A stretch of 64,000 bases of DNA, taken from contig NZ_BMZB01000001.1 of the NCBI RefSeq assembly GCF_014652575.1, positions 1,231,722 through 1,295,721 of the forward strand, read 5' to 3'. A program made the position numbers and the translations under genes. Shown in pieces: positions 1 through 24,872 of the stretch. The number at the start of each line of letters is the position of its first letter. Position 1 is the stretch's first letter. Below the pieces are notes generated by a model. The model was not told the origin of the DNA. It saw nothing but the letters and a program-made list of their open reading frames with translations, and searched no databases. The stretch comes from Asticcacaulis endophyticus. GTDB taxonomy: Bacteria; Pseudomonadota; Alphaproteobacteria; Caulobacterales; Caulobacteraceae.

Positions 1-96
1 GATCCGGCATGAAATCCTGTCCGTTAAGCGCGGGGCGGTCGATTACCTTAACACCTATGTTGGCAAAAATGCATCAGTTTGGCACAACACGAATAA

Positions 97-239: not shown

Positions 240-3200
240 ATGCAAATCAGTAAGAAACGTGCCTTAATGTTAGCCGGAGCGGCCTTTTCGGCCCTGCTCA
301 CCGGCCTTTCGGCGGCTCCTGTGTTTGCGCAGGATGCCCCTGCGGAACCGGCCGCCGAAGAGGCAGTCCAGGAAGTGGTTGTCACGGGTACGCGTATCCG
401 CCGCCCGAATCTCAAGAGCGCCTCACCGATCACCACGGTCGATGCTGCCGAAGTCAAGCTTCAGGGCGCCACCGGCGTTGACAGCTTCCTCGCTAAGCTG
501 CCGCAGATCGAAGCCGGCAATAACGAAAACCAGTCGAATAACTCCGACGGCACTGCGGGCGTTAACCTGCGCAGCCTGGGTGGCAACCGTGCGCTGGTGC
601 TGATCGACGGTCAGCGTTTCTTGCCAACCCTGGGTGTCGACCTGAACTTTGTGCCGTCAACTCTGGTGGAGCGCACGGACGTTCTGACCGGTGGTGCGTC
701 ATCGGTTTACGGCTCTGACGCCATGTCGGGTGTTGTCAACTTCATCATGCGCAAGAAGCTGAACGGCGTGCGCGTCGATGCGCAATACAGCATCTATAAC
801 CACCATAACGACAATGGCGGCCTGCGAACCATTCAGGGCAATAAAGGCATTGAACTGGCTGACAATCACGTTTGGGATGGTGAAAAGTACGACTTCAACA
901 TTGCGGCCGGTGGCAACGTAGACGACGGCAAGGGTAATATCACCGGCTACTTCGGCTACCGTAAGATGGAAGCTGTCCGGCAGGATTCCCGCGACTATTC
1001 TAACTGCGCCCTCGAATTCAACGACCCGGCTGGCGGCTCGTTCCGCTGCGGCGGGTCTGGCACACACGCTTACGGCTGGTTCTTACCGCAAAGCGGTCCA
1101 AGCAATGGCGTGCCGCTTGCCAACGCCAAAGACGGCTCAAAGACATGGGTCAGCAACGACTCGTCGTTTGCCTATAACTATGCGCCGGACAACTACATCC
1201 TGCGTAACTCCGAGCGTTATCAGGCCGGTGCATTCGCCAACTATATGTTCAATGATCATGCCGAAGTCTATGGCAGCTTCATGTTCATGGATGATCACTC
1301 GATAAGCCAAGTGGCCCCTTCGGCTATCTGGTCGGGCCGTGACTTCACCATTAACTGCGCCAACCCGTTCATGAGCGCTCAACAGGGTAACCTGCTGTGT
1401 GGTTCCAATTACGGAAATGCCGGTGTGGATATGACCACCTGGGCGTCCTACCGGGCCGCTACGGGCGAACCGCGCCGCAATGATATGCGTCACACCAACT
1501 ACCGCTTCACGGCAGGCCTGCGTGGCGATATCGTCGAAGGCTGGAGATACGACGCCAACTACATGCATGCAACCACGATTGGTCAGTTCAACTATCAGAA
1601 CGACATCAATCAGGACAAGGCTGAGCAGGCTCTGAACGCGGTGACGCGCAATGGTCAAACCGTCTGTTTTGATGAGTCGAATAACTGTAAACCTTTCGAT
1701 ATTTTCAGCGCCAATGGCCCATCGACCGAAGCCTATACCTTCGTTTATGCGCCGACCTTTACGCGCAATGAGCAGACCATCGATGTCTTCAACGCCTATG
1801 TCAGCGGTGATCTGGGCCAGTATGGCATCACCTCGCCTTGGGCAGCAGATGGTCTGGCGATCGTTCTGGGTGCTGAGCACCGTAAGGAATCGCTTGATGA
1901 ACGCCGTGACGAAAGCCAGCTTTCCTACGCGTCTAACGCGGATGGTAAGGTGTCTGCCGATGAATGGTTCACCGAAATCGAAGTTCCGATCGTGTCGGAT
2001 AAGCCTTTTATCCGCTCTTTGAACGCCTCTGTCGGCTATCGCAGCTCGACCTATAATGTTTCGTCGTCGACCTCGGAAGGCAGCGAAAAGAAGACTGAGA
2101 CCTCTAAGTTCGAAGTCCGCTACGCCCCGACCAGCGATATCCTGTTCCGCGCCAGCTACAATAAGGCCATGCGCGCTGCGAATATCACCGAACTGTTCGC
2201 CTCTCAGGCGGTCGGCAACGTCGCTCTGATCGATCCATGTTCTGTTAGCCAGATTGGGGCCCTTGGCGCCAATGCCGCGACCCTGTGTGCCCGTACGGGA
2301 GCTACCCCGGCACAACTGGCCCTCGGCATCATCGATACACAGGCTGATGTCGGTACGGCACTGGGCGGCGGTAACCCTGACCTGAGCCCTGAAGAAGCCG
2401 AAACCACGACCTATGGTTTCGTCTTTACCCCAGGCTTCGTTCCGGGACTGGCACTGAGCGTGGACTATTATGAAATCCATATCGATGGCTATATCGGTTC
2501 GGTTCAGGCCCAAACAGCGGTTTCGCAGTGTCTGAACACGGGCGATGCCTTCTACTGTGGTTTGATCCGTCGTAACCCGAACAACGGCGCACTGTATGGC
2601 AGCGATACCAGCGGCGGCTATGTGATCTCGACCAACGTCAACACCGGTTATCTGGAAACCAAAGGCATCGACTTTTCGGGTAGCTACCTTTGGACGGCGG
2701 GCTTCGGCAACGTAAACTTCTCGTTCGTGGGCACGCTGCTTGACTCCCTCGAAACCGAAGTGCTGCCGGGTCTGGGTTCCTATGACTGTAAGGGTTACTA
2801 CGGTGCCACCTGCGGTCAGCCGTCTCCGGAATGGCGTCACAATCTGCGCGCCACCTGGACCGTGCCGGGCGACAAGATCTGGGCCCCGACCACCGTGTCG
2901 ATCAACTGGCGTCACTTTGGTGAGACCAAGCTGTCCACCAACAGCACAGATCAGTACCTGACCGGTACCAAGTCGACCCTCAATGCCGAGATTAAGCCGT
3001 ACAACTACATTGATATCGCTGTGACCAAGGACCTGCCTTACGGTCTGGTGGCCCGCGCCGGTATCAACAACCTGTTCGACAAGGACCCGCCTTCGATCAT
3101 GGGTGGTCTGCTGGCTGAAAACGGCAACGGCAACACCTTCCCAAGCACCTACGACCCATTGGGCCGTATGTTGTTCATCGGGATTTCGTCCAAGTTCTAA
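240..3200 (+). CDS. TonB-dependent outer-membrane receptor
   Basis: A 986-residue outer-membrane receptor that would import a ligand using energy from TonB-ExbBD. Residues 1-30 are a signal peptide ending in VFA. A TonB-box-like stretch, EVVVTGTRI, lies at about 45-53, followed by a plug domain with GVNLRSLGGNRALVLIDG and VYGSDAMSGVVNFI. The long beta-barrel ends in phenylalanine (GISSKF), as expected for outer-membrane insertion. The start is preceded by AAGGGGATT. The length and N-terminus fit the large carbohydrate- or peptide-uptake receptors of Caulobacterales. The glycosidases and peptidases downstream suggest an oligosaccharide or glycopeptide ligand; the sequence alone does not fix it. 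A terminator follows, so it is probably transcribed alone from a promoter carrying operator-like site 1. Confidence 0.93.
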   Translation: MQISKKRALMLAGAAFSALLTGLSAAPVFAQDAPAEPAAEEAVQEVVVTGTRIRRPNLKSASPITTVDAAEVKLQGATGVDSFLAKLPQIEAGNNENQSNNSDGTAGVNLRSLGGNRALVLIDGQRFLPTLGVDLNFVPSTLVERTDVLTGGASSVYGSDAMSGVVNFIMRKKLNGVRVDAQYSIYNHHNDNGGLRTIQGNKGIELADNHVWDGEKYDFNIAAGGNVDDGKGNITGYFGYRKMEAVRQDSRDYSNCALEFNDPAGGSFRCGGSGTHAYGWFLPQSGPSNGVPLANAKDGSKTWVSNDSSFAYNYAPDNYILRNSERYQAGAFANYMFNDHAEVYGSFMFMDDHSISQVAPSAIWSGRDFTINCANPFMSAQQGNLLCGSNYGNAGVDMTTWASYRAATGEPRRNDMRHTNYRFTAGLRGDIVEGWRYDANYMHATTIGQFNYQNDINQDKAEQALNAVTRNGQTVCFDESNNCKPFDIFSANGPSTEAYTFVYAPTFTRNEQTIDVFNAYVSGDLGQYGITSPWAADGLAIVLGAEHRKESLDERRDESQLSYASNADGKVSADEWFTEIEVPIVSDKPFIRSLNASVGYRSSTYNVSSSTSEGSEKKTETSKFEVRYAPTSDILFRASYNKAMRAANITELFASQAVGNVALIDPCSVSQIGALGANAATLCARTGATPAQLALGIIDTQADVGTALGGGNPDLSPEEAETTTYGFVFTPGFVPGLALSVDYYEIHIDGYIGSVQAQTAVSQCLNTGDAFYCGLIRRNPNNGALYGSDTSGGYVISTNVNTGYLETKGIDFSGSYLWTAGFGNVNFSFVGTLLDSLETEVLPGLGSYDCKGYYGATCGQPSPEWRHNLRATWTVPGDKIWAPTTVSINWRHFGETKLSTNSTDQYLTGTKSTLNAEIKPYNYIDIAVTKDLPYGLVARAGINNLFDKDPPSIMGGLLAENGNGNTFPSTYDPLGRMLFIGISSKF

Positions 3201-3213
3201 TCTAATCCCCCCG

Positions 3214-3247
3214 AACGGGCGGGTAGCTTCGGCTACCTGCCCGTTTT
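3214..3247 (+). terminator. Rho-independent terminator after the TonB receptor
   Basis: A 14-bp stem with one G-T pair (3214-3227 with 3232-3245) closes on a TTCG tetraloop and is followed by a short T run. It lies 14 bases after the receptor stop codon, separating it from the next gene. Confidence 0.85.
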
Positions 3248-3359
3248 ACGTTTCAGTCCATCTTTGATGGGCCTGAAATCAAAGCGTCGGCATGCCAAAA
3301 CGATTGAGGCACGTCCGGCGCTTTTTTATTTGCATCAGCATCAAATATCGGAGGCCGGT

Positions 3360-5702
3360 ATGCCAAGCAGCTTTAATCGCCGCAGCTTTCTCAAAGGATC
3401 AACGCTGGCAGGGGTAGGCGTTGCCGCCGCAGCACCTGTCGCCATCGCAGCCCCTAAACTGTTGCCAGTCGATCAGGTATCGACGCAGGGGCAATCGCGC
3501 CTGTCGACCTTTACGTCGGACGGAACGCAATGGACGGTCTATGAGGATCAGAGCCGCCGCGACGGCCCGATCAGCTTTGTCTCAACGAAGGGCGCATTCG
3601 CCCTCGATAAACGTCTGGCGGCCTGTTTCGACGATATAAAGCCGTCCTATCTGGGGCTGGCGCTCAAGGATATCTGTCTGGCGGACGCTGATTTGCTGGC
3701 GGATAAGCTGCTGGAAAACGGTGATCCTGATCCGGAGCAGGTGCGTCGTGCCGCCCCGCCGCTGGGGTGGAACTACACGCGCGAATCCCTGTGGTGGCGG
3801 ATGCCGTGGACCAATTTTGTCGGTACCCGTCAGCAGGGCGACACCATGCCGATCTTCCCCAACGGGCGCACGCGCGGCTACCGGCCGGAACATGATTTTC
3901 CGGAACTGGAGGGCGATGACGGGGTTAAAACCCGCTGGGAAGGGCTGCTCGGCGGTTGGCTGCCCGCGATCCATAAGATCATTCAGGTGTCCGACACCCG
4001 CTATTACGACCTGCTGGTGTTTGCCGATGTGACGGCCCCCGATGAACTGTTGGTGCAAACCTGGCACCGCACCGTACAGTACGATAACGGCAAGGCCGTC
4101 AAGACCAGTTTCGGATATTCCTACGCACCATTCCCGCCGCGCCGCACCGTGCCGAGCGCTGAAGATTTTTATGCGGCTCTGTTGGCCTTTGCCGGTTACT
4201 GGCAGAATGAGGTCAAGGATCAGGCGGCGGTGACCCTGCCGGATAAAGCCTTGGCCGACATGGTCAGCCATGCCTTTGCCAAGGAACTGATCACCCGTCC
4301 GCGCGGGGTCTATCCCAAATACGGCGTGGTTGACCGCGACTATTTCGGGCCGGAATATGATGGATTTCAGGACATTCTGACCTCATCGCTTTACGCCAAT
4401 CTGGAGTGGGGTCGCTTCGATCAGGCCAAGGCCGTGCTGGAAAACTATTTTGATCAGTTTGTCTATGATGACGGCATGATCAATATGCGCGGGCCGGAAG
4501 TGGCCCAGTTTGGTCTGACCCTGAGCTTGCTGGCGCGCTATCTGCATTACACCGGTGATCTGGCGACCCTTAAAAAATATGCCGGTAAGATCAGCAATAC
4601 CGCCGTCCTGTTGGCGGAAATGCATGATCTGAGCCTTAAGAAACCGGTGACTGATGCGGGCTTTGGCCTGATCGACGGCTGGAGCGAGTCCGATGCCTGT
4701 CTGCATCCGGACCCCAGCCTGTGGTGGAAGCCGTACTGGAACAATTCTTCGTTCACGATCCGGGGCTGGCGCGACCTTGCGCGCGTCTGGCCGCTGATCA
4801 GCCCGGATCAGGCGGGGCAGGCCGCAGGCTGGAACCGCCGCGCCGATCAGTTGCAGGCCCAGTTGGTCAAGTCAGTGCGCGCCAATGTCCGTCATGACCT
4901 GAAACCGGCCTATCTGGGTGTTTTGCCGGGCCTCAAGCAGACCCACCGTGAGGCCCTGGCCGAAGCGCGCGCTAAGAAACAACGTACGGAGCAAGGCTGG
5001 GCCCACCGCGTCTATGCTGAGTTGCTGCACGCCGATGTGCTGCCGGATGATCTGGCCGACATAGTCATCGATGCGGTGCGTGGTCATGGCGGCACCTCGA
5101 TCGGTGTGCTGGCCAATTTCTCGCCGGCCAATGAAACTAATCGCGACCAGTTGGGCTTTATCTCCTATGGTTATGCCCAGCAATTGTTGCGATCAGATCG
5201 TATCGAGGAATATCTGCTGTTCCTGCATTCGCACCGCTATCATTCTCATACGCCGGGCACCTGGGTGGCCGGTGAGGTGTCGGACATTGACGGTGGCCTG
5301 CCGCTCTATTGCGTACCGGCACAACTGACGATCCCCAAGCTGGTGCGCTGGGCGCTGGTATTCGAAGCCTCCGATGCCGACACGCTTTATCTGGGACGGG
5401 CGATCGCGCGTGACTGGATCGCATCGGGAGAACCTGTGGCCATAACGGGCGCGCCGACCCGCTGGGGTGCGGTTGATTTCAGCGTACAGGGGCAGGGGGC
5501 ATCGATCCGCGGTCAGGTGGCGTTTGCCGGTCAGTCGCGACCAAAAGAGGTTCATCTGCGGTTGCGGGTGCCCAAGGGTAAGACGCTGCGGCGGGTGCTG
5601 ATTAACGGCAAATCCGCCCGTATCGTCGGCCGACAAAAGGATACCGTGGTGTTCTCACCAGCGGGTGTTGCGGCGTTTACTATTGAGGCGGTGTTAGCCT
5701 AA
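3360..5702 (+). CDS. Tat-exported putative glycoside hydrolase, six-hairpin type
   Basis: A 780-residue exported protein of uncertain family. The ATG at 3360 is chosen over one 96 bases upstream because GGAGGCCGG precedes it and it opens directly on a twin-arginine signal (FNRRSFLKG). The middle of the protein, about residues 290-650, has the aromatic-rich helical pattern of (alpha/alpha)6 glycosidases, for example GWSESDACL and PEVAQFGLTLSLL; acidic residues there could be catalytic, but I cannot assign them. The last 100 residues look like a beta-sandwich accessory domain. Its place between a TonB receptor and GH127 and GH2 enzymes supports a periplasmic role in glycan breakdown. I do not recognise the exact CAZy family. 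It ends at a terminator shared with the convergent gene. Confidence 0.7.
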   Translation: MPSSFNRRSFLKGSTLAGVGVAAAAPVAIAAPKLLPVDQVSTQGQSRLSTFTSDGTQWTVYEDQSRRDGPISFVSTKGAFALDKRLAACFDDIKPSYLGLALKDICLADADLLADKLLENGDPDPEQVRRAAPPLGWNYTRESLWWRMPWTNFVGTRQQGDTMPIFPNGRTRGYRPEHDFPELEGDDGVKTRWEGLLGGWLPAIHKIIQVSDTRYYDLLVFADVTAPDELLVQTWHRTVQYDNGKAVKTSFGYSYAPFPPRRTVPSAEDFYAALLAFAGYWQNEVKDQAAVTLPDKALADMVSHAFAKELITRPRGVYPKYGVVDRDYFGPEYDGFQDILTSSLYANLEWGRFDQAKAVLENYFDQFVYDDGMINMRGPEVAQFGLTLSLLARYLHYTGDLATLKKYAGKISNTAVLLAEMHDLSLKKPVTDAGFGLIDGWSESDACLHPDPSLWWKPYWNNSSFTIRGWRDLARVWPLISPDQAGQAAGWNRRADQLQAQLVKSVRANVRHDLKPAYLGVLPGLKQTHREALAEARAKKQRTEQGWAHRVYAELLHADVLPDDLADIVIDAVRGHGGTSIGVLANFSPANETNRDQLGFISYGYAQQLLRSDRIEEYLLFLHSHRYHSHTPGTWVAGEVSDIDGGLPLYCVPAQLTIPKLVRWALVFEASDADTLYLGRAIARDWIASGEPVAITGAPTRWGAVDFSVQGQGASIRGQVAFAGQSRPKEVHLRLRVPKGKTLRRVLINGKSARIVGRQKDTVVFSPAGVAAFTIEAVLA

Positions 5703-5711
5703 AATAAAAAG

Positions 5712-5735
5712 AAGAGGGGCTTTTCGGCCCCTCTT
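5712..5735. terminator. Bidirectional terminator between convergent genes
   Basis: A perfect 9-bp stem, AAGAGGGGC with GCCCCTCTT, and a 6-base loop lie between the stop codons of two convergent genes. A-rich sequence on one side and T-rich on the other allow it to work in both directions. Confidence 0.85.
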
Positions 5736-5736
5736 T

Positions 5737-7515
5737 TCATTTGTCATCGCTGTACGGACTTTGGCCGCCGCTCGCGATAAACTGATCTGTGCGCGTCTCG
5801 ATCACCGGCAAAGGTACCGAACCCAGATCGAGCATGGCGTCGTGGAAATTGCGGATGTCGAACCTGTCGCCCAATGCGGCTTCGGCCCGGCGGCGGGCCT
5901 TCCAGATCGCCAGTTCGCCCATATAGTAGCTGAGCGCCTGACCCGGCGTGTTGATGTAGCGGTCAGTCTCGGTGGTGATTTCATGCTCACTGAGTGCCGT
6001 GTTATCGCGCAGGAACGCCAGCGCCTGATCACGGGTCCAGCCCTTGGCATGCATGCCGGTATCGACCACCAGTCGGCAGGCGCGCCACATCTGATAGGTC
6101 AGCATGCCGAAATGTTCATAAGGGGTGTGATACATGCCCATCTCGACCCCCAGCCGTTCGGCATACAGCGCCCAGCCTTCGCCGTAAGCCGAAATATAAC
6201 CGTTCTGACGAAACTCCGGCAGGGTTTTGTTTTCCAGCGCAAACGGCATCTGCATGGCGTGGCCCGGTGCCCCTTCGTGCAACACCAGTGCGGGCAGGGT
6301 ATAGAGCGGACGCGATTTAAGATTATAGGTGTTGAGGATCAGAACCCCCGGCCCGCCATTGCCGCCGGTATTGAACGGCGCGATGGCTTCCGGCGTCGGG
6401 ATAACGGCAAAGCGCTGACGCGGCAGACGACCGAACCAGGTGGCGGATTTGCCGTCAAATTCTTTTGAAATCCACGCGCCGCGATCAAGGAATTGCTGCG
6501 GTGTATTGACATAGAACTGCGGGTCGGTGCGCAGGAAATCGTTGAATTCCTGTAGCGTGCCGGAGAACTTGACCTGCTTCATGACCTCAAGCATTTCGGC
6601 CCTGATCTTGGCCACTTCGTCGAGGCCGATCTGATGAATCTGGTCAGGCGTCATATCCAGCGTGACATACTCACGGATCAGGGCCTGATAATAGCTTTTA
6701 CCGTCGGGCAGGTCATAGGCCGCAATCGTGGTGCGCGCCTTGGGCATATATTCGCTGCGCAAGAAAACCAGCAGTTTTTTATGCGCGGGGATAACCTTAT
6801 CGGTGATGGCCTGTAGTCCCAGACGGCGTAATTCAGCCTGTGTCTGCGCGGGGATCGAGGCGGGCAGGGTTTTGAACGGCGCATAGAAATTGGTATCCTC
6901 TACCGCCTTACCATCATAAGGGATGGCTACCGACGAGTCGCGCCCCTGAATGGAAATGCGCGAGGGCGTAAAGCCGCGTTTCAATCCCGCACTGAGATTA
7001 TCCGTGCTCTGATCAAAGAAGCGCGGCACGTCGTTCAGCCAGGCGATATAGCGCCGATACTCAGCTTCGGTGCGCAGGTTTTTGGGGGTGCCCCAGCTCA
7101 GGCCGTTCCAGAAGCCGAAGTTCATCTCAAAATTGCGAAAATTCTGATCTGTCAGTTGGGTGTCGATCTGATGGCGGTAGACGATATAGTTGATCTGTTG
7201 TTCGCCAGACAGTGTCTTCGGATCGATGCGGTCAAGGGCGGCCTTAACCTCAAGCCACTTTTTCAGTTTGGCGCTCTGCGCAGCCTTTGAGACGTCGGGC
7301 AGGCGGTCCGGCGTTTCGTCGCCTTCGCGCGGGCCAAGGCTTTGCCGCCATGTCCATTCCGCCTCATAGATGGCGGTGAATGCTGCATCGGGAGATGCAG
7401 CGGCTGCCGCGCTTTCGGCAGCCGCAACCGTGGCCATCGTGCCTGAAAACAAACTGGTGGTCAGGTATAGGCTCATCAGCAGTGGGCGCACCGGTGTCGG
7501 GGGAACTAACGGCAT
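5737..7515 (-). CDS. Exported DUF885 family putative metallopeptidase
   Basis: A 592-residue DUF885 protein. The family is poorly characterised but carries a zinc-peptidase-like motif, seen here as HEGAPGH near residues 412-420, followed by GEGWALYAE, which could supply another ligand. The ATG at 7515 is chosen because an ORF extension upstream would run through operator-like site 2; GAGGCAAG lies just before it. The N-terminus is hydrophobic and ends in an alanine-rich stretch, so export is likely. It is divergent from the GH127 gene and shares its promoter region. A second DUF885 gene at 15014 is a paralogue with the same start of the mature region (IYEAEWTWRQ here, LYEAEWTWRQ there). Peptide bond cleavage in the periplasm is inferred from family and context. 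Confidence 0.85.
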   Translation of the reverse strand: MPLVPPTPVRPLLMSLYLTTSLFSGTMATVAAAESAAAAASPDAAFTAIYEAEWTWRQSLGPREGDETPDRLPDVSKAAQSAKLKKWLEVKAALDRIDPKTLSGEQQINYIVYRHQIDTQLTDQNFRNFEMNFGFWNGLSWGTPKNLRTEAEYRRYIAWLNDVPRFFDQSTDNLSAGLKRGFTPSRISIQGRDSSVAIPYDGKAVEDTNFYAPFKTLPASIPAQTQAELRRLGLQAITDKVIPAHKKLLVFLRSEYMPKARTTIAAYDLPDGKSYYQALIREYVTLDMTPDQIHQIGLDEVAKIRAEMLEVMKQVKFSGTLQEFNDFLRTDPQFYVNTPQQFLDRGAWISKEFDGKSATWFGRLPRQRFAVIPTPEAIAPFNTGGNGGPGVLILNTYNLKSRPLYTLPALVLHEGAPGHAMQMPFALENKTLPEFRQNGYISAYGEGWALYAERLGVEMGMYHTPYEHFGMLTYQMWRACRLVVDTGMHAKGWTRDQALAFLRDNTALSEHEITTETDRYINTPGQALSYYMGELAIWKARRRAEAALGDRFDIRNFHDAMLDLGSVPLPVIETRTDQFIASGGQSPYSDDK

Positions 7516-7555
7516 CTTTAGACTTGCCTCATGAAATATTACAGCTATGTTGAAA

Positions 7556-7570
7556 TTGTATACGGTATAA
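7556..7570 (+). promoter_or_regulatory. Operator-like site 2 between DUF885 and GH127 genes
   Basis: The sequence TTGTATACGGTATAA lies in the 95-base region between two divergent genes, 41 bases from one start and 40 from the other. It matches the sites at 97-111 and 14961-14975, so one regulator could control both genes. The regulator is not in the window. Confidence 0.5.
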
Positions 7571-7610
7571 TTAATCCTGTGCAACATCCTTTGTCCGTGA
7601 GAGGCTTGCC

Positions 7611-13156
<5,546 letters not shown>

Positions 13157-13222
13157 GGGCAGGTCACACCGGCGACACATTGCGGCCTGATGCTGTGTTC
13201 CATAGGTTTCATGAGGTCTGTG

Positions 13223-13732
13223 ATGATTAAGCTAATGGCGGTTATGGGTGTGGCGGCGCTGGTTTTGGGTGGGTGCGCGGCCATGCCGATGGGCGGTGCA
13301 ACTCCCGATGCCACCGAGACCTTGTCCGTGTCGGTCGGGCCTTGCTTTGGGTTCTGCCCGGTCTATAAGGTGTCGGTGACGCCGCAGGGTTTGGTCAGCT
13401 ATGACGGCGAGCGCCACACAGCGGTTTTAGGGACCCGCACCCTTGATAAAGGGCCGCGCGGTTATCGCGCCGTCAGTCAAAAGCTGTCGGCGTTCAAACC
13501 AACCCGCGGACAAACGGCGGATACCCAGTGCGAGCAGCGCATCAGCGATCAGCAGCATTACCGCATCGCCTGGACCGCCACCGATGGCACTGAAACCGTG
13601 CTTCAGCATGACAAGGGCTGCCGCTCACCCGCCAATGACCAGCTTAACAAGGTTCTGGAAAGCCTGCCACAAACTCTGGGCATTAGTGACTGGGCCAAGC
13701 AGGAAACCCGGCCCGGCGTTTCGCGCGGGTAA
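13223..13732 (+). CDS. Small lipoprotein with DUF6438-like domain
   Basis: A 169-residue lipoprotein. The ATG at 13223 is chosen because GAGGT sits 5 bases before it. The signal ends in the lipobox LGGC, so the mature protein is anchored by its N-terminal cysteine. After a linker comes a domain starting GPCFGFCPVYKVSVTPQG, the pattern of DUF6438, whose function is unknown; two later cysteines could pair with these. It lies 66 bases after the GH2 gene on the same strand and could be the operon's last gene. The DUF assignment is from memory of the motif. An alpha-proteobacterial repeat begins at its stop codon. Confidence 0.75.
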   Translation: MIKLMAVMGVAALVLGGCAAMPMGGATPDATETLSVSVGPCFGFCPVYKVSVTPQGLVSYDGERHTAVLGTRTLDKGPRGYRAVSQKLSAFKPTRGQTADTQCEQRISDQQHYRIAWTATDGTETVLQHDKGCRSPANDQLNKVLESLPQTLGISDWAKQETRPGVSRG

Positions 13733-13785
13733 GCACTTTCCAAAAGTGTGAAGCGGTTTTTGGACTCAAAAGTGCGATAAAATAA
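13732..13785. repeat. Alphaproteobacterial intergenic palindromic repeat, copy 1
   Basis: Directly after the lipoprotein stop lies AGCACTTTCCAAAAGTG, then AAGCGGTTTTTGGAC, then AAAAGTGCG. This resembles a repeat seen in very many alphaproteobacterial intergenic regions, with imperfect dyad symmetry around a CGGTTTT core. It lies between convergent genes and may help end transcription. A related copy is at 35435-35500. Confidence 0.55.
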
Positions 13786-13791
13786 GCCTGA

Positions 13792-14892
13792 TTATTTCTG
13801 CGTCTTTTTCAGCAGGGCGGTCAGGTCATCCTTCCAGAACTTCGCCCAGGTGTGGGTGCCGTGGCCGCGCGTGTCTGGTGACGACGGGATCAGGCGATAG
13901 GTCACGCTGCTCAGGCGCGGCAGGGCTTTTTCCGGTATGCCCAACTCTGGCGGATTGATGAAGTCATCGCCGGAATTGATCCAAACGGTCGGTGCGGTGA
14001 TTTTTTCCAGGTTAGGCCACGGATTATAGGTGCGTGAGGCGTCGAACTGATAAATGAAATCATTGGCATCACGCGACGCAATATCCTTTTCAATCCGTTC
14101 ACGGATATTGACCTCAGCCTGTGCGCGGGTCGGGAACTGGGCCTGAAGATATTCAGGCGCGCTGCCCGCCATGACCGACAGGGCCGCCGCGGTGCGCAGG
14201 CCCTGAACCGGCTGGGTTGTGTAGTTGCCGCCTTGCCAGACCGGATCAGCACGGATGGCATCCATAGCAGCGACGCGCCACATGCGGTTACGGCCGGCGA
14301 TCTCAACCGGCTGACACGCCATGGGCATGAGGGCGTCGGCAAAATCAGGGTGCGCCTCCGCCCACACAAAAATATGCATGCAGCCCATCGACGTGCCGAA
14401 AATCAGCCGCAGATGGTCGATCTTAAGCGCGCTTTTCAGCATCTGGCGCTGGGCTTCGACCATGTCGTCATAATCATATTTCGGGAACGCCATGCGCAGC
14501 CCATCGCTGGGTTTAGACGACGCGCCATGACCGATATTGTCAGGCAGGATGATGAAATAGCGAGTGATATCGAGCGGCTGACCGGGGCCGTAAAGCTCAT
14601 CTGCAAACTGCGGCACCAGAAACTGCGCGCCTGAGCCACCGGTGCCGTGCAGGATCATAACCGCATTATCGACCTGACCCTTGGCATCATAGTGCGGCGT
14701 GCCCAACGTGCGATAATTCATCTTCAATTCGCTTAAGGTTTCGCCGGACTTAAAGCGAAAATCCTTCAGGGTCACGCTGGCCTGTTTGGCGGCACTGGCA
14801 TCAAACGCCATGACGGGACTGGATGCCAAAACCGCTCCGATAAGAGCGGTAGCCAGATGTACTTTAAAGGATTTCAACCTCAGTTTGGTCAT
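13792..14892 (-). CDS. Exported MetX-like alpha/beta hydrolase
   Basis: A 366-residue alpha/beta hydrolase of the homoserine acetyltransferase-like branch. The nucleophile elbow is GTSMG, the oxyanion region LHGTGGSG, and the C-terminal acid and histidine are probably in NSGDDFINPP and RGHGTHTW. The start at 14892 has CGGAG eight bases upstream and opens on a signal peptide ending PVMA; the ORF can be extended upstream only by running through operator-like site 3. A periplasmic location argues against methionine synthesis; an esterase role, for example removing acyl groups from the substrate of this locus, is an inference. It is divergent from the second DUF885 gene. Confidence 0.82.
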   Translation of the reverse strand: MTKLRLKSFKVHLATALIGAVLASSPVMAFDASAAKQASVTLKDFRFKSGETLSELKMNYRTLGTPHYDAKGQVDNAVMILHGTGGSGAQFLVPQFADELYGPGQPLDITRYFIILPDNIGHGASSKPSDGLRMAFPKYDYDDMVEAQRQMLKSALKIDHLRLIFGTSMGCMHIFVWAEAHPDFADALMPMACQPVEIAGRNRMWRVAAMDAIRADPVWQGGNYTTQPVQGLRTAAALSVMAGSAPEYLQAQFPTRAQAEVNIRERIEKDIASRDANDFIYQFDASRTYNPWPNLEKITAPTVWINSGDDFINPPELGIPEKALPRLSSVTYRLIPSSPDTRGHGTHTWAKFWKDDLTALLKKTQK

Positions 14893-14960
14893 GACGGGCT
14901 CCGGTAAGCGGTTGCGCGATAAAAGACGCGTGAACGGGCGGGCTAAGTGTTGACACCAAA

Positions 14961-14975
14961 GTATATCGTATACAA
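14961..14975 (-). promoter_or_regulatory. Operator-like site 3 between hydrolase and DUF885 genes
   Basis: On the minus strand the sequence is TTGTATACGATATAC, matching sites 1 and 2 in TTGTATACG and the following TAT. It lies between two divergent genes, 69 bases from the hydrolase start and 39 from the DUF885 start. A TTGACA at 14950-14955 on the plus strand is next to it, so a bound protein could block or assist that promoter. Confidence 0.5.
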
Positions 14976-15013
14976 CATACAATTCGGTGATGTTCAAACA
15001 GGTGGCAGGGATT

Positions 15014-16831
15014 ATGGCGCGATCAGCAGTTTCACTTTTTCTGGGTTTGGTGTGCGCGGTCTCTCCGCTGGCCCTATCTAAGGCCGTTTTGGCTCAGCCC
15101 GCTTTGGCGCAGATAGCAAGCCCGCCAGTCGCCCAAGCGGGGCAAACCGCCGATCAGCGCCTGAAAGCGCTTTATGAAGCCGAGTGGACCTGGCGTCAGG
15201 CGGAGTATGGCCGCTCGGGGCCGGGCCGGGGCTCCAGTTCGGATAAACTGCCCAGCGTCACGCCACAAACCTATGCCCGCCGTCTGGCCTATTGGGATAA
15301 GGTGCTGGCCGAACTCAAAGAGCTGCCGGTGGCGCAGTTATCCCATGATGAAAAGATCAATTACGACGTGTTTCTGGCGTCGGTATCGGCCGAAGCCAAT
15401 CAGATCCGCTTCAAAACCTATGAAGCACCGTTCAATTCCGACAGCTTTTTCTGGACCGGCATGAACCCGCGCACGCCGTACCGCACGGCGGAGGACTATC
15501 GCAAATACTTAAGCCGCATGAAGGACATCCCGCGCTATTTCGATGAGAACACCGTCAATATGAAGGCGGGCCTCAAGCGTGGCTGGACCGTGCCCTATGT
15601 TTCGACCATCGGCCGCGAAAAGACGATGGAAGCCTACACCAAGGCTGACACGACCAATCCGTTTTATGAAGCCTTTGCCCAAATGCCGGACACCATTCCC
15701 GCCGCAGAGGCTGCCGCGTTGAAGGCCGAAGCGCAAACCGTCATCCTTGATGTGGTCGCCCCGGCCTACGTCAAATTGCATACCTTCTTCACCAAGGAAT
15801 ATCAGCCCAAGGCGCGGCGCGATATCGCTGCCTATAGCCTGCCGGACGGCAAGGCGTTTTACAAAGCGCGGATGCAGGAGTTCATTACCCTCGACCTGAC
15901 ACCCGATGAGGTCCACCAGATCGGCCTGAAAGAAGTCGCCCGTATCCGCGCCGACATGGAACAGACCATGAAGGATTCAGGCTTTACCGGCACCTTCCCT
16001 GAGTTTCTGGTGTTCATGCGCACTGATCCGCAGTTCTATGCCAAGACCCCGCGTGAACTGTTGTCCTACTCGGCCTATGTCTCCAAAAAAGCCGACGGAA
16101 AACTAAAGGATTTCTTCAACGTCCTGCCGCGCTATCGCCATGCCATTTTGCCGGTGCCGGATGCGGTCGCACCCATCTATACGTCGGGTCGTGGCGGCCT
16201 TGATAGCTGCCTGATGAACACTTACGACCTGCCGTCGCGCCCGCTTTACAACCTTGCGGCCCTGACCCTGCATGAGTGTACACCGGGCCACAGCTATCAG
16301 GCGGCCGCCGCCTTAGAAGCCCCGCCACGGCCTGATTTTAGGCGCGGCACAGGCTTTTCAGGCTATGGCGAAGGCTGGGGGCTCTATACCGAATGGCTGG
16401 GCACCAAGATGGGCATTTACGAAACCCCCTATGAGGAGTTTGGCCGTCAGACTTTTGAGATGTGGCGCGCCGTGCGTCTGGTGATCGACACCGGTATGCA
16501 CACCAAGGGCTGGACCCGTCAGCAGGCGATGGACTATCTGACCGAAAATACCGCTCTGGCGCCGCTTGATATTAAGAACGAGATTGACCGCTATATCGCC
16601 TGGCCGGCGCAGGCTTTGGCCTATAAGCTGGGCGAGCTTAAGATGCGTGAGATGCGCAGCTTAGCGGAGGCTGAGCTGGGGGCGGAGTTTGATCAGCGCA
16701 CCTTCCACGACACAATTCTGAATATGGGCTCAGTGCCGCTAACCACCTTTGAGTCGGAAATGAAAGCCTATATCGCCGCTGAAAAAGTACGTGTGCAAAA
16801 TAACGCCACGACGACACCTGTGGCCAACTGA
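15014..16831 (+). CDS. Exported DUF885 family putative metallopeptidase, second copy
   Basis: A 605-residue paralogue of the DUF885 protein encoded at 5737-7515. The zinc-peptidase-like motif is HECTPGH at about residues 420-426, followed by GEGWGLYTE. The ATG at 15014 is chosen because it opens directly on a signal peptide (MARSAVSLFLGL, ending AVLAQ) and GGCAGGG precedes it; an upstream ATG at 14987 would add nine residues. It overlaps the next gene by one base (TGATG), so it is coupled with the S9 peptidase. The pairing suggests the two peptidases process the same peptide in the periplasm. Substrate preference cannot be read from the sequence. Confidence 0.87.
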   Translation: MARSAVSLFLGLVCAVSPLALSKAVLAQPALAQIASPPVAQAGQTADQRLKALYEAEWTWRQAEYGRSGPGRGSSSDKLPSVTPQTYARRLAYWDKVLAELKELPVAQLSHDEKINYDVFLASVSAEANQIRFKTYEAPFNSDSFFWTGMNPRTPYRTAEDYRKYLSRMKDIPRYFDENTVNMKAGLKRGWTVPYVSTIGREKTMEAYTKADTTNPFYEAFAQMPDTIPAAEAAALKAEAQTVILDVVAPAYVKLHTFFTKEYQPKARRDIAAYSLPDGKAFYKARMQEFITLDLTPDEVHQIGLKEVARIRADMEQTMKDSGFTGTFPEFLVFMRTDPQFYAKTPRELLSYSAYVSKKADGKLKDFFNVLPRYRHAILPVPDAVAPIYTSGRGGLDSCLMNTYDLPSRPLYNLAALTLHECTPGHSYQAAAALEAPPRPDFRRGTGFSGYGEGWGLYTEWLGTKMGIYETPYEEFGRQTFEMWRAVRLVIDTGMHTKGWTRQQAMDYLTENTALAPLDIKNEIDRYIAWPAQALAYKLGELKMREMRSLAEAELGAEFDQRTFHDTILNMGSVPLTTFESEMKAYIAAEKVRVQNNATTTPVAN

Positions 16832-19179
16832 TGTCTGGAATGTCCATGAAAAAATACCTCAGCGCGGTGGCTGTGGCTGCCCTAACACTCGCCTTCACAG
16901 CATCGGTCATGGCGGCGGCCCCGACCGTTAGCGATTATGAACGCTCGATCGGCCTGCGTGAAGCGTGGGTCGGGTTTGCGCAAAATATCGCAGAGCCCGG
17001 TCACTGGATCGACGGGACGCACAAGTACGTCTATCGCCGCACCGTGCCGGGCGGATTTGAATTTGTGATGCTGGATGCCGATACCCAAACCAAGGCTCCG
17101 GCCTTTGACCATGACAGGCTGGCGGCGGCCTACACTAAGGCCATGGGGAAAACCTATACCGGCTTAAAGCTGCCGTTCACTGAGAACTTCACCACCATGC
17201 AGATGACCGATGCGCAGACGGTGAGCGCGCGTCTCAACGAGGTGACATGGATATGCACGCTGTCGGATTATGTGTGCGCGCCGCAAGTCGATAAGCGTCA
17301 GCCGCGTGGTTTTGGGGTTGTACGTGATCTGAAGGTGCCCGCCGATAATACCCCCAAACCGTCGCCGGATGGTAAGTGGCTGGCGTTCGTTCAGGGCTAT
17401 AATATCGCCGTAAAACCCGCAAGCGGTGGGGCGGTTACCGTCCTGTCGACCGACGGTTCCGAGGGCAATTTCTATGATCCGGAATCGATCGTCTGGGCAC
17501 CGGATTCGGGTAAGCTGGCGGCCTATCGCGTCACCCCCGGCTATCGCCGCGAAGTCACCCGCGTGATTTCCTCTCCGCCCGATCAGGTTCAGCCCAAGGT
17601 CGATGTCCAGCTTTACCCCAAACCCGGTGATGCCATCGATATCGACCGGCCTGTCCTGTTCGATGTGGCTGCCAAGCGCCAGATCAATGTGCCGTTTGAG
17701 CTGTTCGCCAATCCGATTCAGATGGGCGACCTGAAGTGGCGCAAGGACAGTGCTGGCGTGCGCTTTGAGTTCGATCAGCGCGGCCATCAGGTTTACCGCC
17801 TGATTGAGATCGAGGCCGCGTCAGGTAAGCCGCGCGTGGTCGCCGAAGACACCAGCAAAACCTTCATCAACAGCTACAGCCGCAGTTTGGCGCTGGATGT
17901 CGGCGGCGAGGGCAAAGAAGTCATCTGGATGTCAGAACGCGATGGCTGGAACCATCTTTATCTCTATGACGCCAAAACCGGTAAGGTCAAAAACCAGATC
18001 ACCAAAGGCGAGTTCGTCGTGCGTCAGGTCATCAAGGTCGATGAAAAAACACGCCAGATATGGTTTGCCGCTAATGGCATGCGCAAAGGCGAAGACCCGT
18101 ATTTTCAGCACTATTACCGCATTGATTTCGATGGCCGCAACCTGACGCCCATCACCAAAACCGACGCCTTTCACGATGTCGCGTTCTCTTCGGACATGCA
18201 GTTCTATGTCGATACCTATTCGCGCGTCGATTTGCCCAATGTCGCCAAGCTGCATAAGGCCGATGGGACTGAGGTGGCGCAGCTTGAAACGCCCGATATT
18301 GCGCGGTTGCTGGCGGCCGGTTTCAAGCCGCCGGAAGTCTTCACCGCCAAAGGGCGTGACGGCACAACCGACATCTGGGGCGTGATCGTCCGGCCTCAGA
18401 ACTTTGATCCCGCTAAAAAATACCCGGTCATTGAAAACATCTATGCCGGGCCGCATTCATCGTTTGTCCCTAAGACCTTCTGGCCGTTCGGCCCGCACTC
18501 CAGCGGCGATAAGGTCGTGGGGATGCAGGCCCTGGCCGACATGGGTTTTATCGTCGTGCAGATTGACGGCATGGGCACGCTCAATCGCTCCAAGGCGTTT
18601 CATGATGCGGCGTGGAAAGATATTGGCGATACCGGTTTTCCTGACCGCATCGCCTGGCATAAGGCCGCGGCTGCGAAATATAGTTATTACGACATCAGCC
18701 GTGTTGGCATCTATGGCGGCTCGGCTGGCGGGCAGAACTCATTGAGTGCGCTGGTGTTCCAGCCTGATTTTTACAAGGTCGCGGTCGCCTATGCAGGCTG
18801 CTTCGACAATCGCATGGACAAGATCGGCTGGAACGAAGCCTGGATGGGTTGGCCGATTGACGACAGCTATTCGCGCTCATCCGGCGTTGATAATGCCAAA
18901 AACATGACCGGCAATATCCTGCTGGTCACAGGTGAGCTTGATATGAATGTCGATCCGGCCTCAACGATGCAGGTCGCCAATGCTCTGATCAAAGCGCGCA
19001 AAGATTTCGATCTGCTGATCGTGCCGAACGATGGTCATGGAGCGCTCAGAACCACAGGCGATGTGTCCTATGGCCTGCGCCGCCAGTACGATTTCTTCAT
19101 CCGCCACCTTCAGGGCGAGGTCACGCCTGACTGGAACGCCCTGCCTCAAACCGCCGCCAAACCGGCATTGGGAAAATAG
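16831..19179 (+). CDS. Exported S9 family peptidase, DPP-IV-like
   Basis: A 782-residue prolyl-oligopeptidase-clan serine peptidase. A signal peptide comes first (MKKYLSAVAVAAL; translation could begin at 16831 or at the ATG at 16846). A beta-propeller of the DPP-IV N-terminal type follows, then the alpha/beta-hydrolase domain. The catalytic serine is Ser631 in YGGSAGG, the acid is in GELDMNVDP (Asp704 or Asp708) and the histidine is His736 in NDGHG. Characterised relatives release X-Pro or X-Ala dipeptides from N-termini, which would suit a proline- or hydroxyproline-rich peptide. It is coupled to the DUF885 gene by a one-base overlap. The 130 bases after it carry a TATAAT at 19265-19270, likely part of the next gene's promoter. 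Confidence 0.9.
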   Translation: MSGMSMKKYLSAVAVAALTLAFTASVMAAAPTVSDYERSIGLREAWVGFAQNIAEPGHWIDGTHKYVYRRTVPGGFEFVMLDADTQTKAPAFDHDRLAAAYTKAMGKTYTGLKLPFTENFTTMQMTDAQTVSARLNEVTWICTLSDYVCAPQVDKRQPRGFGVVRDLKVPADNTPKPSPDGKWLAFVQGYNIAVKPASGGAVTVLSTDGSEGNFYDPESIVWAPDSGKLAAYRVTPGYRREVTRVISSPPDQVQPKVDVQLYPKPGDAIDIDRPVLFDVAAKRQINVPFELFANPIQMGDLKWRKDSAGVRFEFDQRGHQVYRLIEIEAASGKPRVVAEDTSKTFINSYSRSLALDVGGEGKEVIWMSERDGWNHLYLYDAKTGKVKNQITKGEFVVRQVIKVDEKTRQIWFAANGMRKGEDPYFQHYYRIDFDGRNLTPITKTDAFHDVAFSSDMQFYVDTYSRVDLPNVAKLHKADGTEVAQLETPDIARLLAAGFKPPEVFTAKGRDGTTDIWGVIVRPQNFDPAKKYPVIENIYAGPHSSFVPKTFWPFGPHSSGDKVVGMQALADMGFIVVQIDGMGTLNRSKAFHDAAWKDIGDTGFPDRIAWHKAAAAKYSYYDISRVGIYGGSAGGQNSLSALVFQPDFYKVAVAYAGCFDNRMDKIGWNEAWMGWPIDDSYSRSSGVDNAKNMTGNILLVTGELDMNVDPASTMQVANALIKARKDFDLLIVPNDGHGALRTTGDVSYGLRRQYDFFIRHLQGEVTPDWNALPQTAAKPALGK

Positions 19180-19311: not shown

Positions 19312-20748
19312 ATGATCAGGAAAGCTATGCGCCATATGGCGCTGGCGGTAACGCTTTGTGCCGCCGTTATGGCCGCTTCGACCGCACACGCGCAAACCAG
19401 CGCCCGTCAACAGGAACGCGAGCGTCAGGCCGCTCTGATACGCGAACGCGATGCCGCCGAGGCGCTTAAGGTGACTGCCCGCCTGATCGAACAGCACCAG
19501 ATGCCGTGTGAAATCACCGAGGCGGGTACCTTGCCCGCCGTCGAGATCGTGCAGGACGGTAAATCCGTGGCGGCGGATGTCTATGAGGTGGTCTGTAAGG
19601 ATCAGCGCGGTTATGTGCTGCTGAGCGCGAAATCAAAACTGGTCGGCGACCCTATGGGCTGCCTGCAGGCCGCAGAACTGGCTAAGGCGTCGCCCGGCAG
19701 TCCGGTCTGTAAGCTTAAGGCCAACCGCGCGGCCCATTACTGGCTGACCGATACGGCCAAGTCCAAAATCCCCAACTGTCAGATTGCCGGGGCGCGTTTC
19801 ATCAGCCACAGCCCCGCCACCAATACCGAAGTTTATGAGATCAGTTGTAAGGGCGTCTCCGGCGGCATTTTTACCGTCCCGACCCATAAGGCTGCCGATA
19901 AAACCGTCGGCTATATGAACTGCCTCAAAACCGCTGATACGGCGCTCAAATGTGAACTGACGACGCTGGAACTGGCGGCCCAGACTCTGAACCCTCTGGT
20001 CAAAAAGAACGCACCCGACTGCACGGTGACCAATGCCCGCTTTGTCGGCGCCACCAGGGATGCCGAATATTATGAAATCGGCTGTCAGGGGAAGGCCGGT
20101 TTTGTCATGGTGACCGACCTTGACGCCGGTTTCAAGGCGACGGTCGGCTGCGATAAGGCGGCCACGATTGGCGGCTGCAAATTCACCGATACGGCGGCTC
20201 TGGCGGCGGCCGGTAAGGCGAAAGCCGATGAAGCCAAGGCCAAATATCAGACGGCCTATACGCAGGCGCTGAGCCAAAATAACGTCGCCTGCACCTTCAC
20301 TGATTTTCGTCGCATCGGGCGTGACAGCGCCACCAATCGCGATGTGGCTGAGTTCAAATGCCCGGAGGCCGTCTATGGCCTGATGGCCTTCATTCCCGAT
20401 GCGGGCAAGGCGGAAAAGTTTGAGAATTTTGACTGCTATGTGGCGACCGTCAATAAGCTCGACTGCACGCTTACGACCCCCGATGACCTCAAGGCCCATC
20501 TGCAAACCCTGTCGGTTGGTCACAAATCGATCAAGCCCGACTGCGTGATCGGTGAGGCCCGCTATGCCTTTGAAAACGCCGGGCAGGTGGTGATGGAAAT
20601 CGCCTGCATCAACACCCGTGGCTATATCGCCGTGCTGAACAAGGCGCGCACCGCTCTTAATCCCGCCGTGCCCTGCCACATCGCGGCCACCAATCCTGGG
20701 GTTCCGGAAAAGTGCTCGATCAAGGGCAATGGCACTAAACAGGATTAA
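19312..20748 (+). CDS. Secreted protein of five four-cysteine repeats, function unknown
   Basis: A 478-residue protein I do not recognise. Residues 1-27 are a signal peptide (ending AHA), followed by a charged stretch rich in Arg and Glu. The rest is five tandem units of about 80 residues, each with four cysteines: 66/95/117/133, 156/179/204/214, 237/258/280/289, 327/350/375/385 and 411/432/455/468. Each unit reads roughly C, then ARF or similar, then YEISC or similar, then GY/GF and a hydrophobic strand, then two more cysteines. The regular spacing suggests two disulfides per unit in the periplasm or outside the cell. CAGGAG touches the ATG at 19312, and AGGAAAG precedes the ATG at 19327, so the exact start is uncertain. 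It converges on the antiporter gene with a 4-base overlap. Confidence 0.8.
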   Translation: MIRKAMRHMALAVTLCAAVMAASTAHAQTSARQQERERQAALIRERDAAEALKVTARLIEQHQMPCEITEAGTLPAVEIVQDGKSVAADVYEVVCKDQRGYVLLSAKSKLVGDPMGCLQAAELAKASPGSPVCKLKANRAAHYWLTDTAKSKIPNCQIAGARFISHSPATNTEVYEISCKGVSGGIFTVPTHKAADKTVGYMNCLKTADTALKCELTTLELAAQTLNPLVKKNAPDCTVTNARFVGATRDAEYYEIGCQGKAGFVMVTDLDAGFKATVGCDKAATIGGCKFTDTAALAAAGKAKADEAKAKYQTAYTQALSQNNVACTFTDFRRIGRDSATNRDVAEFKCPEAVYGLMAFIPDAGKAEKFENFDCYVATVNKLDCTLTTPDDLKAHLQTLSVGHKSIKPDCVIGEARYAFENAGQVVMEIACINTRGYIAVLNKARTALNPAVPCHIAATNPGVPEKCSIKGNGTKQD

Positions 20749-24095: not shown

Positions 24096-24126
24096 GGGGA
24101 AAAGACTAGCATGTTTTTGAGCGCGT

Positions 24127-24280
24127 ACCGGCCATTTTCGGACATTATATTTACGCTCAAGCGCCGCGAGGCTCGTCGCAGGGGCGGCGGCGGGCAGTCG
24201 CCCTTGCCAACTTAAAGATTGGCTTGGAGGTATAACTCACACAATGGAGAACGTAAATATAATGTCCGAAAATGGCCGGT
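24127..24280. mobile_element. MITE-like element with perfect 29-bp terminal inverted repeats
   Basis: Positions 24127-24155 and 24252-24280 are exact inverted copies over 29 bases, beginning ACCGGCCATTTTCGG on the left. They enclose 96 bases with no transposase. The arms are too far apart and the centre too unstructured for a simple terminator, and the place is a promoter region between divergent genes. A miniature inverted-repeat element is the best reading. No clear target duplication was found beyond possibly two bases. An invertible regulatory segment is an alternative, but no recombinase gene is nearby. Confidence 0.65.
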
Positions 24281-24338
24281 GTTAGAATTCATTATTCGCC
24301 ATAATCGACCTCTGATATAATCCTGCCCGGAGGCGCTT

Positions 24339-24872
24339 ATGCCCAAAAGTTCACCACCTGCCGAAACCATCCATTACGCCACGGGCCCGTCGAGTCTGGG
24401 GGCTGTGCTGGTTGCCCAAAGCACAGCCGGTCTGTGCAGCCTGATGATCGATGACGATCCGAAAGCCTTAAGGGATCAACTGGCCCTCAGATTTCCCAAT
24501 GCGGAACTGATCGAAGACGTATCCGGGCTTAAAGCCGTTCTGGCGCAAGCCATCGCCCTGATTGATGCGCCCGATGCGGCTTATGACGGTCCGCTTGATC
24601 TGCGCGGCACGGCGTTTCAGCAAAGCGTGTGGCAGGCCCTGATGACGGTGCCGGCAGGTGAGACCCTGACCTATTCCGAATTGGCGGAGCGTGTTGGCAA
24701 TCCAAAGGCCGTGCGCGCGGTAGCTGCCGCCTGTGGTGCCAACCGTATCGCGGTCGTCATTCCCTGTCACCGCATTATCGGGCGAAACGGATCGCTCACC
24801 GGCTATCGCTGGGGGGTTAAGCGCAAACAATCCCTGCTGCAACGTGAGGAGAGAGGTCATGGACACGCTTGA
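24339..24872 (+). CDS. ogt: Methylated-DNA-protein-cysteine methyltransferase
   Basis: A 177-residue O6-alkylguanine-DNA alkyltransferase that transfers alkyl groups from O6 of guanine to its own cysteine, being consumed in the process. The acceptor is Cys143 in IPCHRIIG; the DNA-binding helix-turn-helix (TYSELAERVGNPKAVRAVA) with its arginine finger precedes it. CGGAGG precedes the ATG. It is the first gene of a run with a 2OG oxygenase and alkB, and overlaps the next gene by 14 bases. It is divergent from the Ada-AlkA fusion, whose sensor domain is a plausible activator of this operon. Confidence 0.95.
   Translation: MPKSSPPAETIHYATGPSSLGAVLVAQSTAGLCSLMIDDDPKALRDQLALRFPNAELIEDVSGLKAVLAQAIALIDAPDAAYDGPLDLRGTAFQQSVWQALMTVPAGETLTYSELAERVGNPKAVRAVAAACGANRIAVVIPCHRIIGRNGSLTGYRWGVKRKQSLLQREERGHGHA

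Follow-up and report, generated by a model that had tools for sequence, protein, structure and literature searches.

A putative glycoprotein utilization locus of Asticcacaulis endophyticus and its linkage to 4-hydroxyproline catabolism

The locus at positions 240–19179 of the stretch analysed here (the window, 64 000 nucleotides of Asticcacaulis endophyticus contig NZ_BMZB01000001.1) joins exported glycosidase-type genes to three putative peptidase genes, and raises the question of which substrate it serves. A preliminary description, made from the letters of the window, listed a TonB receptor, a GH127/GH146-type β-L-arabinofuranosidase, a coupled GH2 enzyme, an unclassified glycosidase-like protein exported by the twin-arginine (Tat) route (TatX), an exported α/β hydrolase, two DUF885 putative metallopeptidases (DUF885a and DUF885b) and an S9 peptidase, and proposed that they strip and then degrade a plant glycoprotein rich in hydroxyproline (Hyp). 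The interval holds nine long open frames, among which all of the listed genes are present with matching families and at the places claimed. The Hyp-rich glycoprotein reading is supported by linkage to 4-hydroxyproline catabolism, a feature that the preliminary description had not predicted. Most probably, the window locus is the outer half, for uptake and trimming, of a Hyp-rich glycoprotein utilization system. The cluster probably takes apart such glycoproteins from the cell walls of plants or algae, and its linkage to Hyp-breakdown genes in relatives points to consumption of both sugar and protein.

Linkage to 4-hydroxyproline catabolism

Genomes of relatives are coded G and the stretches read are coded L, whereas the contigs of A. 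endophyticus that hold the window and a second locus are C1 and C2, respectively. The genome has only one PF05544 gene, at 374–375 kb of C2, which is a 4-hydroxyproline epimerase as judged by NF010578 (522 bits, cut-off 376). The C2 locus repeats the DUF885/GH146 gene pair, divergently arranged and 63%/71% identical to that of the window, and also contains genes for a dihydrodipicolinate synthase (DHDPS)-family protein, a flavin adenine dinucleotide (FAD) D-amino-acid oxidase, an M24 prolidase-like enzyme, an amino-acid permease and a GntR regulator, along with genes of the DUF5695, GH97, GH43 and GH127 families. Epimerase, D-amino-acid oxidase/dehydrogenase, deaminase and semialdehyde dehydrogenase convert hydroxyproline to 2-oxoglutarate. 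Genes for the first three, the oxidase and deaminase being broad-family matches, are found together in this genome (epimerase, L030:16375-17403; oxidase/dehydrogenase, L031:64-1287; DHDPS-family deaminase, L030:17568-18479), a combination that indicates 4-hydroxyproline catabolism. The GH97 protein is closest to the retaining α-galactosidases 3a24/5e1q, a likeness that fits the Ser-α-Gal of extensins named in the available part of PMC9266454.

Among 25 Asticcacaulis genomes, TatX occurs in 17 and PF05544 in 20; both are present in 16, TatX only in one, PF05544 only in four and neither in four. TatX and the epimerase gene lie within 30 kb of each other in 9 of the 16 genomes with both, against 0.23 expected for random places (P ∼2e-13, a guide only, as kinship is ignored). 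A distance of 106 kb separates them in one further genome, and in the remaining six they are farther apart or on other contigs; these six include A. endophyticus itself as well as G069 and G074, whose contigs are so short that linkage there cannot be judged. Gene order varies among the linked genomes. In G071, all nine window genes and the Hyp-catabolic genes are contained in ∼32 kb, which holds GntR, epimerase, deaminase, oxidase, M24, DUF885a, GH146, GH2, DUF6438, MetX-like, DUF885b, S9, Ldh_2-family, cupin, receptor, TatX and permease, and in G014 and G072 a DUF885a homologue (74% identical) flanks the deaminase/epimerase pair. The Ldh_2-family gene (PF02615, L112:9394-10404) comes after S9 in G071; related cyclic-imine reductases act in proline/hydroxyproline metabolism.

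The linkage recurs in Sphingomonas, in other families of Caulobacterales and in two genomes outside the class. Four Sphingomonas species hold DUF885a, GH146, DUF5695, TatX, GH2 and the receptor together, and their epimerase gene lies on a contig of the same size as that of the locus, at most 3 kb from the edge of the stretch read, in two and on a contig of another size in two. In a survey of 398 Caulobacterales genomes, 23 gave GH146 matches with an E value of 1e-150 or lower; scoring was limited to two candidates per genome, such that more copies may exist, and three matches lack fetched flanks (L157 in G204, L159 in G258 and another in G178). Eight of the 23 genomes, all outside the genus, have a copy from the clade to which the window protein belongs (see below), with the epimerase gene within 12 kb in seven and on another contig in the eighth (G433). 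Ten other non-genus genomes, nine in the other clade and one (G204, 47% identity) unplaced, have an epimerase in two cases, each on another contig. G010, from the family search, likewise joins GH146 and epimerase. In a phylum sample (12 of 398 genomes with a match at E 1e-120 or better), five genomes apart from A. endophyticus show at least 46% identity, and four of them (G659, G729, G785 and G541; not G476) have the epimerase gene within 19 kb, as compared with none of the six genomes at 41% identity or less. G659, which is outside the class, brings together regulator, oxidase, deaminase, epimerase, GH2, DUF5695, receptor, DUF885, GH146 and M24.

A tree of 48 of the 49 flanked GH146 copies (one of <600 residues was dropped, and copies of the phylum sample were not used) splits with full support into a window clade of 30 and another clade of 18, the window protein falling inside the clade of Hyp-linked copies with support of 100/100. 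Within 12 kb, 17 window-clade copies have Hyp genes, seven have peptidases only, two have TatX or DUF5695 only and four have none; G209 and G258, where the epimerase gene lies just beyond the stretch read, are labelled peptidase-only. A Hyp-catabolic or peptidase gene is thereby found near 24/30 copies of the window clade and 0/18 of the other (Fisher 4e-8, ignoring kinship), and the label ‘none’ takes four changes on the tree versus 16.1 when shuffled. The preliminary description had named conservation of glycosidase genes without peptidase genes as an outcome that would speak against it; at this distance, DUF885, S9 or M24 accompanies 24/30 window-clade copies and 0/18 of the other clade, and is absent in six of the former. 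The GH146 subclade L029, L033 and L036 (56–59% identical) is set in a different kind of locus, which in each case contains tryptophan-halogenase-like genes and no Hyp genes, and it probably serves another substrate.

Two rival explanations are to be weighed against these counts. The first, that a sugar locus came to lie beside a locus for general peptide scavenging by chance, would be in keeping with the commonness of DUF885, of which the A. endophyticus genome has six copies, though the two GH146 loci account for three of these; the recurrent linkage in shuffled order and the clade specificity, albeit among related genomes, make such a coincidence hardly credible. The second, that the locus serves pectin side chains (arabinan, rhamnogalacturonan (RG)-I or RG-II) and that the peptidase and Hyp genes only happen to lie nearby, is suggested by BT0349, the closest solved enzyme, which sits in an RG-I locus for which the available passages of PMC10850190 name no Hyp genes, and by the other GH146 clade, which has no Hyp genes nearby and illustrates that the family does serve other substrates. 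The clade of the window is, however, the Hyp-linked one, across several families and outside the class and with gene orders changed, and we regard the pectin explanation as improbable. RG-II or arabinan as the main substrate, which the preliminary description had held as its alternative, is disfavoured by the linkage to Hyp catabolism, as it would not explain the epimerase, oxidase, deaminase and prolidase-like genes.

Enzymes and other genes of the window locus

The arabinofuranosidase gene (7611–10031, plus strand) encodes a protein with matches to PF07944, the GH127/GH146 catalytic family (394.9 bits, cut-off 24.9), PF20736 and PF20620. Its best solved match is BT0349 (5opj), the founder of GH146, at 461 bits over residues 44–797, which is almost full length, whereas GH127 HypBA1 gives 51 bits only. 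The protein is thus GH146-type, and of the GH127/GH146 assignment made initially the PF07944 family stands and the GH127 half falls away. The zinc-site residues E356 and C358 (Glu-x-Cys) and C425 and C426 (Cys-Cys), including the catalytic Cys, are kept (a Glu, Cys, Cys, Cys ligand set is described in the available text of PMC10850190), and β-L-arabinofuranosidase activity is predicted from the sequence. In the same passages, the GH146 enzymes XeHypBA1 and Bll4HypBA1 are active on arabinofuranose (Araf)-β-Hyp and other GH146 enzymes take arabinan or arabinogalactan protein (AGP) as substrate; as members differ in this way, the family alone cannot fix the substrate. The N terminus carries a twin-arginine-like SRRSLL. 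The start of the gene for a GH2 LacZ-type exo-glycosidase, β-galactosidase-like (10028–13156, plus strand; PF02836, PF02929), overlaps the GH146 stop by 4 bases; the GH2 protein matches NF052611 at 931.7 bits, under the cut-off of 999, and in G063, G064 and G042 its homologue adjoins M24 within the run of Hyp genes.

Three putative peptidase genes accompany these glycosidases. DUF885a (5737–7587, minus strand) matches the PF05960-family DUF885 model at 511.9 bits, and DUF885b (14987–16831, plus strand) matches PF05960 at 480.2 bits and PDB 3o0y at E 5e-68. Their motif is HE-x4-H (HEGAPGH at residue 437 and HECTPGH at residue 428, respectively), followed by GEGW 32 residues downstream (469 in DUF885a). 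Neither protein has the HExxH and downstream Glu of the M32, M3 and M2 zinc peptidases, and we do not class them there; both are putative metallopeptidases. The S9 protein (16831–19179, plus strand; PF00930, PF00326) keeps the Ser-Asp-His triad (GGSAGG 629, GELD 701, DGHG 733–737) and a dipeptidyl peptidase IV (DPP-IV)-type propeller, as seen in the family matches and in alignment to 2ecf and 5yp1.

TatX (3357–5702, plus strand, with a possible alternative upstream TTG at 3264) has no Pfam or NCBIfam family match beyond Tat-signal models, and no PDB sequence match with a single sequence or with a 14-row profile. Its predicted structure (predicted local distance difference test score, pLDDT, 60) consists of a β-sandwich, an (α/α)6 barrel and a second β-sandwich, and we consider it a putative glycoside hydrolase on the strength of this modelled (α/α)6 glycosidase superfold only, assigned to no GH family. 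GH121 is not among the matches listed for TatX, which does not in itself exclude a GH121 identity. TatX is 97% identical in Asticcacaulis sp. UBA2476. DUF5695 (PF18951) recurrently adjoins GH146 or TatX (L030:10291-13065, L032:6701-9469, L049-L051 and L057), its start being twin-arginine-like in L030 and L032, and is a second candidate carbohydrate enzyme. No functional study of DUF885 or DUF5695 was found in the literature (titles and abstract starts).

The counts for the remaining genes refer to 21 TatX stretches and are lower bounds, as the stretches span 7–57 kb and homologues below the set identities are uncounted; nine of the stretches were extended owing to a nearby epimerase, but the linkage counts given above come from separate searches. 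The TonB-dependent receptor (240–3200, plus strand; PF00593, PF07715), the proposed importer of Hyp-glycopeptides or arabinosides, has a homologue of at least 45% identity in 20/21. The G073 receptor shares only 62% protein identity with that of the window (813–2726), whereas the downstream genes are 91–92% identical in DNA, a pattern that an exchange of the receptor would produce. Divergent from the window receptor is a cupin-like gene, whose first codons occupy positions 1–10 (minus strand) and which lies mostly to the left of the window (whole gene L027:15742-16731, minus strand); it shows 61% identity to the PF13621 protein L035:6550-7572 and has a homologue in 15/21. A DUF6438 lipoprotein (13190–13732, plus strand; PF20033, 75.6 bits, lipobox present) occurs in 4/21 (G071, G073, G076 and L044). 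The exported MetX-like α/β hydrolase, possibly an esterase (13792–14997, minus strand, start probably at 14892), has PRK06489 as its best NCBIfam match (508 bits, cut-off 305) and occurs in 3/21; its gene adjoins GH146, DUF885 and S9 also in another genus (L162). N-terminal export signals are present in all nine genes as read by eye in the translations, not by a signal-peptide program, and some are visible only from a start downstream of that of the longest frame. Two of the nine genes (5737–7587 and 13792–14997) are on the opposite strand, and thus the locus is not a single operon. It also differs from Bacteroidetes-type SusC/SusD polysaccharide utilization loci in that a scan of the ten genes between 240 and 20748 finds no SusD family. 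The tenth (19312–20748) encodes an exported 478-aa protein with Cys-containing repeats by eye, without a Pfam or NCBIfam match and without a counterpart in the relatives’ stretches compared, and a run of genes beside the locus at 22605–26229 that resemble alkylation-repair genes (by eye, Ada/AlkA, Ogt and AlkB; by Pfam, a PF09859 oxygenase) is apparently unrelated.

Proposed route and the points against it

In the route proposed here, the TonB receptor would import Hyp-arabinosylated glycopeptides, and TatX, GH146 and GH2 would strip their sugars in the periplasm or at the surface, GH146 taking β-L-arabinofuranose off Hyp. Both DUF885 proteins and the S9 peptidase would then cut the exposed Pro/Hyp-rich peptide, the amino-acid permease and M24 prolidase-like enzyme of the C2 locus would yield free hydroxyproline in the cell, and the epimerase, D-amino-acid oxidase/dehydrogenase, DHDPS-family deaminase and semialdehyde dehydrogenase would carry hydroxyproline to 2-oxoglutarate. 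The sequences establish the gene content, the family membership and a linkage kept across genera; we infer the compartments, the substrate, the order of steps and the specificity of each enzyme.

Extensin, AGP and algal glycoproteins are not told apart by the present data, and two sub-cases of the Hyp-rich glycoprotein reading take substrates other than extensin. If the substrate were AGP, GH146 would clip terminal β-1,3-arabinofuranose and GH2 β-galactose before the Hyp backbone is eaten; consistent with this, the GH146 enzyme Bll3HypBA1 releases β-1,3-Araf and is active on rice AGP (PMC10850190), and the LacZ-type GH2 gene overlaps GH146 and recurs beside Hyp genes. The GH97 α-galactosidase-like, GH43 and GH127 genes of the C2 locus, however, suit extensin better, and no endo-galactanase family was found among the part of the neighbours scanned, in which GH43 subfamilies, some of them galactanases, were not assigned; AGP in place of extensin is a possibility that we hold only tentatively. 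Related Hyp-arabinoside chemistry occurs in algae and in peptide hormones, which counts for Hyp-rich glycoproteins of green-algal walls, or small plant peptide hormones that carry arabinose, as the real substrate. Use of algal Hyp-rich glycoproteins has been proposed for another phylum in the part of PMC4454575 available, and we judge this second sub-case somewhat less probable than AGP.

Several observations weigh against the Hyp-rich glycoprotein reading. Window positions 7599–9986, nearly all of GH146, are cleanly absent in G073 (L118) and Asticcacaulis sp. UBA2476 (L044), where most flanks are 91–97% identical and GH2 is brought up to the DUF885/GH146 intergenic region. The clean absence in these two close relatives implies that GH146 is dispensable at this place; both keep the peptidases, and G073 still keeps a C2-type GH146 paralogue. 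No GH146 is found in the stretch read for 7/17 TatX-bearing Asticcacaulis genomes, some cut by contig ends, and G063 has TatX, receptor, S9, GH2 and Hyp genes but neither GH146 nor DUF885 across 39 kb. Six of the 30 copies in the Hyp-linked clade have neither peptidase nor Hyp genes at a distance of up to 12 kb, and three of these six belong to another kind of receptor locus. It is not evident what the GH2 enzyme would act on in extensin; its presence suggests that galactose-bearing glycans may matter, and AGP thereby remains a candidate. In the S9 protein, the double-Glu motif, which in DPP-IV fixes the free N terminus of the substrate, is not intact: the DEE of 2ecf and 5yp1 aligns with DPE 216–218, and the flanking insert is absent. 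From the ‘DPP-IV-like S9 peptidase’ first described, the S9 family, propeller and triad are retained and DPP-IV is dropped as a claim of specificity. Finally, the window half and the Hyp half lie on separate contigs (C1 and C2) in A. endophyticus, the C2 oxidase, deaminase and M24 proteins match broad families only, and the one candidate semialdehyde dehydrogenase scores 500 bits versus a cut-off of 770 (8/12 PF00171 matches in the genome scanned).

Relation to described systems and significance

The HypBA1/HypBA2/HypAA system of Bifidobacterium longum likewise has GH127/GH146-kind β-L-arabinofuranosidases acting on Hyp-arabinosides and clustered with a transporter (PMC10850190, PMC7263609), but imports sugars through an ATP-binding cassette (ABC) system in place of a TonB receptor; the available passages describe no peptidase or Hyp catabolism, and the word ‘peptidase’ is absent from PMC10850190. 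The HypBA1-HypAA-HypBA2 trio is not found in the window locus, which has neither a HypAA-type GH43 nor a GH121 HypBA2. No full GH121 match is seen among the proteins scanned here, and the C2 locus, with its GH43 and GH127, gives only partial HypBA2 matches far under the cut-off. A further comparison is Xanthomonas euvesicatoria XCV2724/2728/2729 (PMC6085000), in which GH146 XeHypBA1 occurs with the 528-aa GH43 XeHypAA; the C2 GH43, beside GH146, is also 528 aa. A neighbouring prolyl-oligopeptidase gene, a pseudogene there, was suggested by the authors to act on Hyp-rich glycoproteins, whereas no Hyp catabolism, DUF885 or TatX is named in the portion available.

The epimerase of the C2 locus belongs to the same family (HypE) as those of a genome neighbourhood study of bacterial 4-hydroxyproline catabolism (PMC4113996), in which no glycosidase coupling was seen under the terms searched, its main text not containing ‘arabino’, ‘extensin’, ‘plant’ or ‘collagen’. 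For Latescibacteria, a GH127 gene of an aquatic bacterium led to the prediction that Hyp-rich glycoproteins are used; the available part of PMC4454575 names neither a linked locus nor genes of Hyp catabolism. The M60 peptidase Svx, which has relatives in Asticcacaulis, has been proposed to cut extensin (PMC9266454, in part). No literature linking trans-4-hydroxy-L-proline, Caulobacter, operon and plant was found, and no description of the combined locus was recognized in titles, abstracts and passages, subscription papers lying outside the search.

Several enzymes able to remove arabinose from hydroxyproline have been described, but we found no account of how bacteria also consume the Hyp-rich backbone. 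More broadly, and with considerable doubt, the proteobacterial island may be widespread and eat Hyp-arabinosylated glycoproteins whole, in which case TatX and DUF5695 would be new GH families for Hyp-/Ser-linked glycans and DUF885 would include Hyp/Pro-specific peptidases that need prior sugar removal. The island, with its arabinofuranosidase, peptidases, receptor and Hyp catabolism, names candidates for each step, gives DUF885 a testable role and offers two unclassified carbohydrate-enzyme candidates.

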